From Haliclona indistincta (taxonomy: Eukaryota > Porifera > Demospongiae > Haplosclerida > Chalinidae): 64,000 nucleotides of DNA. The stretch is taken from NCBI GenBank assembly GCA_964017065.1, contig OZ024783.1, positions 14,258,040-14,322,039 of the forward strand, given 5' to 3'. The position numbers and the translations under genes were made by a program. Under the pieces are notes generated by a model. The model ran no database searches and was not told where the DNA came from. It saw nothing but the letters and a program-made list of their open reading frames with translations. This document shows, in pieces, positions 35,921 through 49,497 of the stretch (positions within the stretch are counted from its first letter, which is position 1; each line of letters starts with the position of its first letter).

Positions 35921-38900
35921 TCAAGAACTGTTGTCTATAAATTCACTCTGGATAGACTCAGCGAGAATCTCTTCTCCTACCATACGATACTTGAGAACAC
36001 GTACGAGAGTGCTCCACTTCACTGGATTATTATCAGGAGTTGCTAGTTGCTGCCACATACTGAACACTTCAGCAAACATACCGATCGGTTCTCCACGATG
36101 CTGATAGTCAATGGCATTTAGCTGTGCTTGAGTGAGTCCAAGTGCCAGACCAACTCTTCTCCATTTATCAGGAATTACAGCAGCCACACTTTCTGTGAAC
36201 TGGAACAGTGAAATCTCATGATTGGCACCTGCAACTGAAGCAAAGGTATAAACATAAACAGTTGTTTTTCTAAAATTATGGGCTTGCTCACACATAATTA
36301 TAAGCCAGATTAATATACATGTACTGTAAGATTAGCATGCATGTAACATATAGCTACAGCAGTGTATGTATACTGAATTAACTCACCAGTAGAGGGAGAC
36401 TGAGAATTGACAGATTTTGCAGTAGAGGGAGAATCAACCGAGAATGAGGCTGCTGATAATCATGCATAAACTTTATGAAGAACATGAATTATTAGACTCA
36501 CCATTCTTATCATGTGCTGCCAACCATGACAACATCCTCTTATCTGTACAGCGACCAGAACCATGGGCTGGTCTCACAGAGCAGGTGAGCCATCCTGTGG
36601 ACACGTTAACCTCACACGGGTGAGGTGTGCTTTCGCATTTCTTGAATGGACACCAGAATCCATCAGTAAACACAATCTTGCTAGTGTCAAGGTGTCGCTG
36701 CTCGCAGACCTTGGCAATAGCGCGGTGAATGGCAGCTTTAACGAGAGGAGCCACAGATGGGTCACCATTGAAATGGATGACCAGGCATGCATGATGCTCT
36801 ACCAGCATCACTACTCCTCCTGACGTGCATCGAAAACTAATGACATCACGACCGATGATCTCATGGAGAGTGAAGAGAGGGTTGCAAAGCAAGGCAACAA
36901 CTAGAGCAGCAAACAACCCAAGTGGTATCACTTTTGTGCGACAAAGAAGGACAAGAGGAGGCAGCTCACCATCCAGACCAGAAGATGTCATCTTGTTGCT
37001 TGGGAGTATGGTAGGAATAAAGAAAAGCTCTTCATCGTCAATATGTACCGAAGACACTATTAAGAGATGCTTCAGAATTGCGAGGAAGTCATCTACTGTG
37101 TAGACACATTTTCCAGCTACATTCACTCGATACTCGCTACAAAGAACATCAACAAGCTCTCTCCTGAACAGCCCTTGCTCACGCAGCCTTCGTACAGACA
37201 CCATGTAATCAGAAAGAAAAGGATAGAAAGAGGAGATCATTAGAAGGTCGATGATGCCGAGATTCAAAATTTCCGTGACTTCACTGAGAATGATCTGAGG
37301 ATCGGTAAAGACCAAGTGAGGTGTGGCTTCTTTAAAGAACATGCAGAGTGCAGCGTCATCAAGAAACATTAATGCTGCATTCACATCTTCTTTAGTCATT
37401 CTCAGATTCTTTCCAATAGATACACACTCTGCTAGACCAAGAACACTGCGACCTTCTTTCTTTGCTTTACCGCTCACCTCAAGTTCAAATAAATACCATC
37501 TAGTAGGTATATCGACATCAGCATTGCTGCAAGCCTTTATAATCATCTGCCGTAAAGAAGAAGCCTTTTTGCTGCGCCCTTTTATGACCCGAGTATTGAT
37601 TGGTAAGAGAATATCGCCATCCGGACTAACCTCAATGCACATTGACTTTAGCTCACCAAGGCTCTTTTTTAACCTTTTATTTTTGCCACTGCCTGTTTCA
37701 TTAACAAGTGACAAGTGCTTATCAGCATGAGTGCCAATCAGAAGGAACTTTGGCTCTGATGATTTCTGGAAGATGCTTTCCTCTGAATGCTTGAAAGATG
37801 AGAGGGTGCGAACCAGCTCTTCAACACTTTCAAGTTGAGTATGCTCCAGTTCTGTAGGCTTGCGGAGGTGCTGGTCGTCTTTTACATACTCATACTGGAG
37901 CTTATCATTGATACTGCGGTTGTACTTTGAGACAACTATGTTGACAGTACTATCTCTGACAAACGCAGGTACAAGGCTGACAAATGAGGGTTGTCCGCCA
38001 GAATCTATCAAGTGGACAAACGTCTTTTTCTGCTTGCAATCCTCGGGGATAGTTGGAGGACTATAAGCCATATTCTCAGCAAGAGTATGCACCATGCTGC
38101 CCATTGATGGAAGGGGTGTATCACTATCTTCATTATCACTCTCTTCTGAACCATCAGCTGAACTGCAGGAATCTTGCAAACTGTCTACCTCTCTTTCACA
38201 ATCTTCTTGTGAACTGAATGGTTGAGATATGCTGCTCTCAGCAACTGTACTAGTGAATGGAAAAGGTTGGGCAGTGATCAATGTAGGAGATAGATTCTGT
38301 TCAAGAACCTTCACTTCCTCTGCGATGAAGCTAAGGTATGATTCATCATCGAGCTCTTTCCACGTACAGATATTTCCACTGTCATCAGCTTTGACTCGGT
38401 GTATTGATACGGCACGGACCGCCCGGGAGGCTAAAGGAGTGCTATTTCTTTTGGGAGGCGGTGGCAAGTCAAGCAGAAGATATCGTAAGCTGGTTTTGCC
38501 AGATCCAGGTGCCCCAATGATGAGAACTTTAATGATAAAGACTCTTGTAACACCATCTTTCATAGCTCTTTCCACTGCTTGAGTGTACAGTTGAGTAACA
38601 TCTAAAATAAAGTGCTAAATATCTAATAATTATATACACATAAATCACAACTCACCAGCTATCTCTTGGTTCATGTATTCTATAATAGTTTTACGTTCTT
38701 GCAAATTTGCTAAATCAAACGGAGTTCTTCTTCCCTAATAAACATAAACAATGTCATGCATGTAGCACATGCAGGTATAAATACCTTACCCCACTCTCAA
38801 GGTGTATGTTGGCTCCATGGGTTACTAGCAACTTAACAATTTCCAAATGATCTTTGTCAACAGCATAATGACAGGCAGTCCAAAACATCTACAAAACATT

Positions 38901-47900: not shown

Positions 47901-49497
47901 TGATGTGCGTCCCACGTTGCGGGGAATGTTTGTATATATATATGTATGTATCTGGCCGCGTGGTGCGTTTGTCCTCCCGATGTTCCCGAGAAGTCACGTG
48001 CGCGTACACATTGACTGCGCCCCATGATGTAATCCTCACGTGGCGCGATTCAAAATAAGACTAGACGCCTGGACGGTCTTACTGTTGTGCATATGCAGAA
48101 AAATTGATTGTTCTTGAATTGTGCAGGACATAAATCAGCTCAGGCTCGCCCCCAGTATTTATAAATGTACTAGTTATAGTAAATCATGAACGCTTATACA
48201 GTAATTCTCAGTTAAGTTGTCAGAATCAAGAGCTTGTGGTAATGATACAGTTTACACAATGTACCATAAACTGACACATTCCAAATGTGTTGTTGACAAA
48301 AAACCTCCCTGAAATTGTAGTTTTTTGTATGTTTAAAGGCTATATCTGATGAAAGCTGTGGGTTGCATTATCTGTTATCTTGTGCTGTAGGCCTACTAGC
48401 ACATCAGATAATGAGTCCTGTACTCTAACATACAATGAGACCACCAACACATCATCAGTCCTACTCCACTAGAGAATGCTTGAAGCACGACACCTATGTG
48501 AGCACACCACTCCACTATAATCTCTATACTCACTGTGTTCTCTTATGCAGCAAATCTTTCTAGCTGACATCCTCCCAGCACTCATTATAAAATTAACAGC
48601 TCTGTTTCATTGCTCTGCCATAGTGCTAGTTTGTGGTACAGCAGTTTTATTACTTCTTGCAAGGGTAAAGCGCGAACCGTAGAGCATAGAGCGTAAAGCG
48701 TGGGGCACTAATGTGTAAAAATTCCATAAAGTCTTTGATAATGCTCGAATAAATACCAGTGACTTGGCACATTAGTGACTGCAAGGTGACGCTTTACACT
48801 CAAATTTTCATTGCAATAAGTAATAAAACCCTCGTACATTGTGAAGAAAAAATTAAAGAAATATTGCATTGGGGTACAAGTGCAGGCATAAATACAACCA
48901 ATACATAATTCGATAACACGCAATACGTATGGCAATGAAAGGCATTTTCAACAAACATTTTGATATAATGATGTCAGTTTTTTAGTGATATGATTATTTT
49001 ATTTTCATTGCACTTTATGTGTTTGGCTTTGTGTCCTACATGCTTTCACAAAAGTGTGCGCACAAATTAATTTACTGTATTTGTAAACAACTAACCATGG
49101 CACCTCTGTAGTATGCCGTTGTTATGGTACGGAAGCGTTCCTGACCAGCTGTGTCCCATATCTGTAGCTTTATCATTCTCCCATCAATACTGACAGTACG
49201 AATTTTAAAATCAACACCTGTATAATAACAGTACTAAATCTTGTGATTATACCAAAAGATTTACAGGAGCTTGTAGTTAGTGGTTCCATTGTCATGCGTT
49301 ATGTATTCTTATACATGCAGTGCAATGAGGAAAAATTGCATTACTGAAAACAAAAAGCTCTGCTCACCAATAGTTACTTTAAACGTGGAATGGAAAGCAT
49401 TATCAGTAAATCTCACAACAATGCCCGTCTTGCCTACATCACGGTCTCCTATCAACAGTATCTTGAACAAAAGGTCGTACGTAAGCGTCTTGGCCAT
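35921..49497 (-). CDS. Rab-ankyrin-ROC-COR-death domain protein, 19 exons
   Basis: Exons (5' to 3'): 49497-49368, 49217-49096, 45532-45455, 45201-45112, 44668-44603, 43968-43918 (Rab, residues 1-179: [27 protein letters not shown]); 43157-43062, 42542-42441, 42172-42071, 41384-41324, 41266-41232, 41172-41068, 39891-39790, 39717-39616, 38888-38790, 38734-38656 (ankyrin repeats, residues 180-473); 38601-36502 (ROC P-loop [23 protein letters not shown], then a COR-like WYLFELE...[14 protein letters not shown]...LVFTDPQ); 36449-36387 (Ser-rich linker); 36228-35921 (death domain: [22 protein letters not shown]). All junctions are GT/AG, phases match, and the total is 3,891 nt (1,296 codons plus stop). 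The tail order resembles DAPK1 with a Rab replacing the kinase. The Rab part lacks C-terminal cysteines for prenylation. Alternative: two genes, Rab and Ank-ROCO, although the Rab exon 6 has no stop before its donor. Confidence 0.82.
39460..39600 (-). repeat. dispersed repeat fragment in intron
   Basis: Shares ggttaagcgtttgtgtc-type sequence and the following caaaaaac...tgtttac...tcttaccgct segment with 62445-62570, in opposite orientation. Confidence 0.6.
40417..41005. mobile_element. TTAA-flanked (piggyBac-type) MITE, copy B
   Basis: 589 bp, inverted relative to 12440-13030; ends ccctttaa...ttaaaggg, TTAA at 40413-40416 and 41006-41009. It lies in an intron between two ankyrin exons of the Rab-ankyrin-ROCO-death gene. 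Confidence 0.85.
43536..43641. repeat. 53-bp direct tandem duplication
   Basis: Two near-identical copies of gcactggcaatcgtcaagat...cactggtt at 43536 and 43589, in the intron between the last Rab exon and the first ankyrin exon. Confidence 0.9.
45565..46033. mobile_element. PIF/Harbinger-type MITE
   Basis: 469 bp; ends ggcggcgtttacacta...tagtgttaacgccgcc flanked by TTA at 45562-45564 and 46034-46036. A 3-bp TTA duplication suits PIF/Harbinger. In intron 2 of the Rab-ankyrin-ROCO-death gene. Confidence 0.75.
46371..47112. mobile_element. VNTR-bearing short element, copy 2
   Basis: Starts gcaccaaaggtgcagttgcctcgg, ends ctccgcccaccgaggca (termini tgcctcggtg/caccgaggca are inverted). It carries about six 24-bp units (agcatgcaagcagcagaac...) at 46510-46640, and a 3' part equal to that of the copy at 16149-17517. 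Confidence 0.75.
47161..47276. mobile_element. short hairpin MITE (attacttcttgcaa ends)
   Basis: 116 bp with ends attacttcttgcaa and the inverted ttgcaggaagtagtaat. Related elements lie at 48643-48829 and 52701-52848. Confidence 0.65.
48643..48829. mobile_element. short hairpin MITE, second member
   Basis: Ends gttttattacttcttgcaa and ttgcaataagtaataaaac are inverted; the inside carries gtaaagcgtg and its inverted cgctttac. Confidence 0.7.

Follow-up and report, generated by a model that had tools for sequence, protein, structure and literature searches.

A predicted chain joining a Rab8-type GTPase to ankyrin repeats, RocCOR and a death-domain-like end in the sponge Haliclona indistincta

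Rabs serve LRRK2 both as substrates and as recruiters, and the question of how they come together with ROCO proteins is an active one. A locus of the demosponge Haliclona indistincta raises it anew, as a Rab and a ROCO protein are predicted there in one chain. The locus lies in a stretch of 64,000 nucleotides (nt), referred to here as the window (contig OZ024783.1, denoted C1, positions 14258040 to 14322039; the genome has 144 Mb in 46 contigs), and consists of a 19-exon model on the minus strand, from 49497 to 35921, which we call the window gene. Its domain order begins with a Rab8-type Rab, which is a switch of membrane traffic, followed by nine ankyrin-sized exons, RocCOR and a weak death domain. 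The window gene is one of a family: at least three genes close to each other, the window gene and two paralogs, P1 and P2, share a Rab-ankyrin-RocCOR-death-like layout. Is this a single gene, where does its Rab come from, and what could a Rab do in such a chain?

The predicted chain

When the model was rebuilt, everything that the original prediction had said of the exon chain held: there are 19 minus-strand exons of 3,891 nt in total, all introns are GT-AG and the exon phases match throughout, with a single terminal stop after 1,296 residues. Exon 11 can be read as 26 nt, or as 35 nt via an upstream AG, both versions being in frame. An in-frame TGA stands 75 nt 5' of the start codon, and the interval contains no further in-frame ATG. 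The frame is not a product of chance, as 1,296 codons are open across 19 phased exons and the ratio of replacement to silent substitution rates (dN/dS) of RocCOR is 0.22–0.24 against four paralogs.

A Pfam scan of the whole chain gives a Ras/Rab family match at residues 12–172 (E 3.7e-62). Compared with solved structures, the Rab part (exons 1–6, residues 1–179) scores 243 bits with Rab8A, 222 with Rab10 and 207 with Rab1, and it is 68% identical to the genome's own Rab8. Exons 7–10 and 12–16 make nine ankyrin-sized units, five of which pass the Pfam single-repeat model. The second GTPase has a P-loop GAPGSGKT (500–507), DSGGQP (670–675) and GTHAD (760–764), with about 160 residues, including a Ser/acid-rich stretch, between the P-loop of exon 17 and G3.

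A sequence search with exon 17 as a single chain is weak, while a profile of 26 rows matches the COR part to Chlorobium Roco (3dpu, E 5.9e-5; also 6hlu and 8r4b). Foldseek with the AlphaFold2 (AF2) model of exon 17 finds Chlorobium RocCOR as well (3dpu, E 1.4e-6, probability 1.00; 3dpt, E about 1e-6), with LRRK2 next at E 2.8e-3. This model is good over about the last 280 residues only and of low confidence in the Roc half, so the assignment of the Roc half rests on its motifs: the 26 rows all share the G and K of the P-loop, the SGGQ at G3 and the G-T-x-x-D at G4. ROCO proteins have Roc and COR in tandem, and by profile and model this is what the window gene is predicted to encode.

The end of the chain is less clear. 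All five paralog copies of exon 19 match Pfam Death, the best at E 0.0014, below the curated cut-off, and the whole-chain scan does not list Death. Against solved structures nothing is significant (the RIPK1 death domain is at E 0.6), and the AF2 model of the death end, made from two sequences, has a mean predicted local distance difference test score (pLDDT) of 53 and a best Foldseek match of E 5.2, also not significant. Exon 19 is likely a death domain. Neither a kinase family nor leucine-rich repeats (LRR) appear in the whole-chain scan, in line with the kinase-free chain that had been predicted; of the proposed order, the Rab, the ankyrins and RocCOR stand, and the death end is left at sub-threshold strength. 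The chain ends with FIDNSS, without prenylation cysteines, and reading through past exon 6 ends with HNI, again with no cysteine end.

Relatives of the window gene and the source of its Rab

The cluster was read over C1:14195001–14450000 (600 N inside) and over two 20 kb stretches further along. P1 (plus strand, 14337126 to about 14352360) and P2 (minus strand, 14272239 to about 14230578) are tandem paralogs with the same order and phases and with open frames, and contain Rab exons 1–6, ankyrin exons 14–16, exon 17 and exon 19, with exon 18 also in P1. Their Rab exon 6 ends with H/D-D-N at the donor gtaagtct, as in the window gene, and phase-0 ankyrin exons follow, in P1 after 462 nt. In a further copy, Q1 (C1:14701708–14710342), Rab exons 1–6 are followed by exon 7, and the P-loop is broken. 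The junction of exon 6 to the ankyrins, on which the original prediction depended, thus recurs in P1, P2 and Q1.

Other units are less complete. P3 has exons 13–19 (Table 1), and no Rab exons 1–5 were found for it in the region read. Unlinked Rab8-like copies lie about 1.0–1.4 kb downstream of three RocCOR-death genes, namely R4 after P3, R5 after P1 and R6 after a unit denoted S; R5 and R6 have a stop within exon 6 and no cysteine end. Units S and T (C1:14372506–14385730 and 14415234–14433380) have more divergent Rab-like exons upstream of ankyrin exons, and S also has RocCOR-death, but we did not count them as fusions because their exon chains could not be closed. In a copy at C1:14.723 Mb only exons 1–4 were found. 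Places resembling Rab exon 2 number at least 15 from C1:14.206 to 14.874 Mb, and some of them were read.

Could the model have merged two genes, of which one, Rab8-like, ends at about exon 6 and the other, ankyrin-RocCOR-death, begins at about exon 7? The separate Rab copies R4, R5 and R6, two of them with a stop inside exon 6, and P3, which stands without a Rab body, would fit such a pair. However, exon 6 has a good donor and neither an in-frame stop nor a cysteine tail in the window gene, P1, P2 and Q1, merely 462 nt separate it from an ankyrin exon in P1, and two annotated isoforms of another sponge, described below, span from a Rab to a weak death match. We judge the merger unlikely, to the point of giving it little weight.

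Several further observations concern these copies. In two units, an isolated piece of the RocCOR exon, covering its residues 597–625, lies between the death exon and the separate Rab copy (C1:14352730–14352813 and 14313921–14314007), which suggests block-wise copying of the unit. Two Rab exon sets with equal scores lie about 143 kb from each other on opposite strands (C1:14659075–14660052, plus; C1:14802254–14803231, minus) and may be an inverted duplication or an assembly artefact. Protein P0001 matches exon 17 of P2 by eye, and proteins P0005–P0008 (two from Rotaria) have large scores to the Rab at 12–13% query coverage, which suggests several tandem Rab-like domains.

The source of the Rab is suggested by the exons themselves. 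Rab8 of the same genome (contig C4, from 8551446) has exons of 124/122/78/90/66/51 nt, and the window gene has 130/122/78/90/66/51 nt in the same phases, so that exons 2–6 are equal in length. Double-cysteine ends are used for prenylation. What may be the last exon of Rab8, located 0.9 kb past exon 6, has such an end, GGDGCSC, and is likely the tail exon; it was the first of 32 candidates with an AG and cysteines from a loose scan, picked for its position and tail-like make-up, and the same kind of scan gives candidates at S and T too, so the scan is not specific.

Since the Rab8 of the genome has the same exons 1–6, the simplest reading is that the fusion retained these exons and had the tail exon swapped for an ankyrin gene at the phase-0 intron after exon 6. 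Such a swap would account for the clean frame as well as for the missing prenyl end. An integrated decoy should derive from a host protein, and the captured domain here appears to do so. The suggestion that the chain is a DAPK-like scaffold in which a Rab replaced the kinase is not supported in that form, which would imply descent from a DAPK with a kinase; the Rab seems to have come from Rab8 by exon joining. In a Rab tree, to which eight loci of this genome were submitted (L001–L003 gave the same open reading frame and L006 none), the window gene and Q1 stand apart from P1, P2, R5 and R6, with Rab8 between the two sets; there may have been one capture or two, as the tree is compatible with either.

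The search for the same order in another sponge, which had been proposed as a check, was successful in Halichondria panicea (Demospongiae), with the reservation that the death match is weak. LOC135335879, an 'uncharacterized protein', is annotated with isoforms X5 (1,359 residues) and X10 (1,282 residues). As in the window gene, a single chain begins with a Rab (Ras at 12–170) and continues with ankyrins and Roc, the latter being a second P-loop GTPase stretch at about 560 or 458 with Roc/Ras as its match; a weak Death match at sub-threshold E 0.0013 and 0.0035 closes the chain. Unlike in the window gene, the Rab is of Rab11 type (Rab11A, 286 bits), and its G3 is WDTAGLE (Q to L); Rab11 Q70L is a GTPase-dead form. 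In a search from Roc to the end, two of the 13 H. panicea rows had a Ras family, both from LOC135335879, among the 120 of 124 matches listed. RocCOR searches of the window-gene family (24 matches) and of H. panicea (the same 120 of 124 listed) did not retrieve each other; such searches see only relatives sharing exact words, about 8,000 best-sharing candidates being scored. Comparison of the two RocCOR profiles aligned the P-loop alone, and no death domain was found when the H. panicea ends were compared with solved structures. A common origin of the two sponge fusions is therefore disfavoured, by the different Rab and by a RocCOR that can be aligned at the P-loop only, and because of this same distance H. 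panicea likely built the layout independently with a different Rab.

The state of the fused Rab and its possible role

In the window-gene Rab, G4 is changed from NKCD to NRCD and G5 from ETSAK to EISHK, while the G1 consensus GxxxxGKT, G2 (TIG) and WDTAGQE are kept. P1 has G3 changed from WDTAGQE to RDTASHE, and P2 has SKCD at G4. Q1 looks dead, as its G1 is GDGDVDRT and its G3 WDTAWQE; it shares the altered G4 and G5 of the window gene. In Ras, K117R raises nucleotide exchange, A146T/V mutants exchange fast and codon-61 mutants are impaired in hydrolysis (PMC8295990 and PMC6813200); the exact G5 change of A to H was not found described. By analogy with Ras, several of the fused Rabs appear to be altered at positions where changes activate, which is a trend and not a rule. 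The two GTPase modules originally predicted can be retained in so far as a second P-loop GTPase is present; that both work is doubtful, with G4 and G5 of the Rab altered and no prenylation end.

Switch II of the window gene is identical to that of Rab8 at 20/20 residues, with 8 silent and 0 replacement codons, against 100/157 residues identical in the rest of the Rab (p 5e-4). P1 keeps 9/20 and P2 13/20. The threonine at residue 74, equivalent to Thr72 of Rab8A, is kept in the window gene and lost in P1, P2 and Q1.

For P1 versus P2, dN/dS is 0.95 in the Rab (dN 0.183, dS 0.192), 0.72 in the ankyrins, 0.27 in the death part and 0.22 in RocCOR, and replacement to silent counts are 67.5:19.5 in the Rab against 95.8:111.2 in RocCOR (Fisher p 8.8e-7). 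The same comparison of counts gives p 4e-5 for the window gene against P1 and p 1e-4 against P2. The Rab dN/dS is 0.25 for R5 versus R6 and 0.64 for the window gene versus Q1, its nearest copy.

We tentatively read these features as follows, short of holding the reading probable: the window gene would encode a single chain of Rab8-matching exons and an ankyrin-RocCOR-death-like gene, acting in the cytosol as a danger sensor that carries its own Rab as bait on a ROCO death-signalling scaffold. Lacking a lipid tail, the fused Rab would stay in the cytosol; with G4 and G5 changed at exchange-speeding positions, it would load GTP without an exchange factor, and it would display the switch II surface of Rab8. 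A binder or modifier of Rab switch II, either a microbial effector or an LRRK kinase such as may be encoded next door, would be caught at the Rab, and the catch would be relayed through the ankyrins to RocCOR, a nucleotide-driven dimer switch, and on to the death-like end. Fast change of the Rab in the sister genes, with RocCOR and death constrained, would be diversification of the bait, as in plant NLRs with integrated domains. A bacterial effector has been reported as a GTPase-activating protein on Rab8 among other Rabs (PMC4810096), and the integrated domain of the plant NLR Pik-1 is under diversifying selection (PMC8294853).

Several points weigh against the bait reading. That the 19 exons form one chain is a prediction from genomic sequence, the identity of the death end is sub-threshold, and hhalign of the death exons with the H. 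panicea ends gives a probability of 0.3; the Rab8 tail exon is one of 32 candidates. R5 and R6 are unfused, yet both have A changed to S in G3 (R6 also E to K) and no prenyl end, so the motif changes are not special to the fusion. No RocCOR was found within the 11 kb read past exon 7 of Q1. In P3, ankyrin-RocCOR-death is constrained and Rab exons 1–5 were not found, so the Rab looks dispensable there. The dN/dS values are pairwise estimates by the method of Nei and Gojobori (NG86), which are crude and noisy on short parts (1.68 at dS 0.04 for the death part of the window gene versus S); those above 1 for the Rab of P2, 1.36 versus R5 and 1.76 versus R6, are point estimates, none demonstrated above 1. 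The window-gene Rab is constrained relative to Rab8 (dN/dS 0.26), and the pattern of P1 and P2, with constrained RocCOR and death and a Rab that changes fast but stays open, would fit bait diversification or relaxed constraint alike.

Relaxed constraint leads to a second reading, in which exon joining brought the Rab in, the Rab is now decaying and ankyrin-RocCOR-death does the work. A Rab dN/dS near 1 between P1 and P2, the broken G motifs of Q1 and the missing Rab exons 1–5 of P3 speak for it, but three copies keep their frames and splice sites open, and the 8 silent and 0 replacement changes in switch II of the window gene do not look like decay. In a neutral simulation the Rab stays open in 8–9% of runs at the observed differences and in 27% at half of them, which is weak evidence against a decaying Rab. 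We consider this reading improbable.

The closest rival to the bait reading is a regulator acting in cis, where the Rab would dock on its own ankyrins and hold RocCOR in one state, as a covalent analogue of Rab29 and the LRRK2 ankyrins. Residues of the LRRK2 ankyrins are needed for its recruitment and activation by Rab29 (PMC5753036), a Rab, though not the same one, stands beside ankyrins in each of the two sponge lineages, which is a domain-fusion argument for interaction, and switch II is frozen in the window gene. On the other hand, P1 and P2 have not retained switch II despite a constrained RocCOR, and the chain has no kinase for the Rab to activate, so that we find cis regulation rather unlikely.

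Neighbouring features and comparison with known systems

Table 1. Exons of the window gene and other features, with positions in the window.
Feature	Position	Strand	Remarks
Exon 1	49368..49497	-	130 nt; Rab residues 1–44; P-loop GDRDVGKT
Exon 2	49096..49217	-	122 nt; Rab, end of switch I to switch II; switch II same as in genome's Rab8
Exon 3	45455..45532	-	78 nt; Rab residues 85–110
Exon 4	45112..45201	-	90 nt; Rab G4 NRCD (Rab8: NKCD)
Exon 5	44603..44668	-	66 nt; Rab G5 EISHK (Rab8: ETSAK)
Exon 6	43918..43968	-	51 nt; final Rab helix; HDN precedes the phase-0 donor; fusion point, without prenylation end
Exon 7	43062..43157	-	first ankyrin unit
Exon 8	42441..42542	-	ankyrin unit
Exon 9	42071..42172	-	ankyrin unit
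Exon 10	41324..41384	-	partial ankyrin unit
Exon 11	41232..41257	-	26 nt (35-nt version possible); joins two ankyrin blocks
Exon 12	41068..41172	-	ankyrin-like unit; start of block 2
Exon 13	39790..39891	-	ankyrin unit
Exon 14	39616..39717	-	ankyrin unit
Exon 15	38790..38888	-	ankyrin unit
Exon 16	38656..38734	-	partial ankyrin unit
Exon 17	36502..38601	-	2,100 nt; RocCOR with P-loop GAPGSGKT, DSGGQP (after about 160 residues that include a Ser/acid-rich stretch), GTHAD and COR
Exon 18	36387..36452	-	short linker, Ser-rich
Exon 19	35921..36234	-	death-domain-like end and stop
P2 Rab exons 1–3	12318..14200	-	other P2 exons beyond window start
P3, exons 13–19	56433..61547	-	ankyrin-RocCOR-death; orphan exon 6 just past window end, at 64350–64400
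R4	52419..55008	-	Rab8-like copy, no ankyrins found; exon 2 broken by stop and frame break
LRRK-type exons	20554..31452	+	LRR, Roc, COR, kinase in order; unspliced pieces, Pfam-supported
Single-exon galactosyltransferase	34795..35697	+	PF01762, E 1.6e-31; between LRRK-type exons and window gene

The LRRK-type pieces comprise a weak LRR match (E 0.003), Roc (22722–23081, E 6.3e-7), a COR piece (26148–27521) with COR-B at E 1.2e-6 and LRRK2 at E 4.3e-7, and a kinase piece (29971–30486) with Pkinase at E 1.2e-13, for which MAP3K12 is first and LRRK1 second at E 1e-6. Open pieces from 31452 to 34432 (plus strand) are given to this gene by eye only. The LRRK-type neighbour on the other strand is a lead only. 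It allows the idea that its kinase phosphorylates residue 74 of the fused Rab and thereby sets the scaffold. LRRK2 phosphorylates Thr72 in switch II of Rab8A (PMC7886321), the window gene has preserved residue 74 and switch II in full, and the last LRRK-type piece lies 4.5 kb (Pfam-supported) or 1.5 kb (by eye) from the 3' end of the window gene. However, adjacency by itself is no proof, P1, P2 and Q1 have lost this threonine, and LRRK1 does not phosphorylate Rab8A (PMC7886321), while the neighbouring kinase may be LRRK1- or LRRK2-like; a tethered LRRK substrate thus has a slim chance in our estimate.

Elsewhere in the window there are open frames that by eye resemble the gag and pol of retroelements (1804–5889, minus strand), an open reading frame matching YqaJ/viral alkaline exonuclease (17364–18260, plus strand, E 9.8e-16) and a DDE_Tnp_4 transposase fragment (18592–19098, minus strand).

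Among known proteins, DAPK1 has its ankyrins before Roc. As a ROCO protein of group 3 it also resembles the window gene in having Roc-COR without LRR and, as far as the sub-threshold death-like end of the window gene goes, in its C-terminal death domain (PMC6337361), and it differs by its N-terminal kinase, in place of which a Rab8-type Rab and no kinase were found in the window gene. LRRK1 and LRRK2, with Rab29, Rab8A and Rab10, offer another likeness, as ankyrins and RocCOR are functionally tied there to Rabs, and the switch II threonine is kept in the window gene; there, however, the Rab is separate, whereas the window-gene Rab is covalent and without a prenyl end, in a chain without LRR or kinase. 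Large Rabs (Rab44, Rab45/RASEF, Rab46) likewise have a Rab domain within a long multidomain protein, but at the C-terminus after an EF-hand and a coiled coil (PMC8303950), while the window-gene Rab is N-terminal and joined to a ROCO part. With plant NLRs such as Pik-1 and its HMA domain the window gene would share a host-type domain inside a receptor-like chain, which in P1 and P2 changes faster in protein than the core; it has RocCOR and not an NLR core, and effector binding is a proposal here. Brown-algal ROCO families have been proposed as candidate immune receptors, and the title and the start of the abstract mention neither a Rab nor a death part (PMC11378527). Expansions of death and TRADD-N domains in sponges were described by Kaur et al. 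in 2021, where a word search of the main text did not show Rab (PMC8195603).

No description of a Rab-ankyrin-RocCOR-death protein was found in the open-licence literature, by the listed titles and starts of abstracts, and by title nothing there related to an integrated decoy with a Rab GTPase and an effector. The claim that no such protein had been described agrees with this, but the chain is not unique, having P1, P2 and the H. panicea protein as company. The tandem paralogs, the Rab8 parent in the same genome and the neighbouring LRRK-type exons were absent from the original prediction and were all found in the follow-up.

To hypothesize further, sponges would have captured a Rab at least two times, Rab8 in the present case and Rab11 in that of Halichondria, each as a bait that is unprenylated and GTP-prone and that fronts an ankyrin-RocCOR-death protein. 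These would be the first integrated-decoy receptors of animals and a covalent record linking Rabs with ankyrin-ROCO proteins, with the LRRK kinase gene next door as a possible reader; in this full extent we regard the hypothesis as doubtful. Evolution seems to have put a Rab and a ROCO protein into a single chain, using a different Rab in each of the two sponges, and the fused forms may serve as natural constructs for asking whether an ankyrin-bound Rab sets the state of RocCOR. They also bear on whether loss of prenylation together with altered guanine motifs gives a Rab fixed in the 'on' state, and on whether animals, like plants with their NLRs, use built-in decoys of effector targets.

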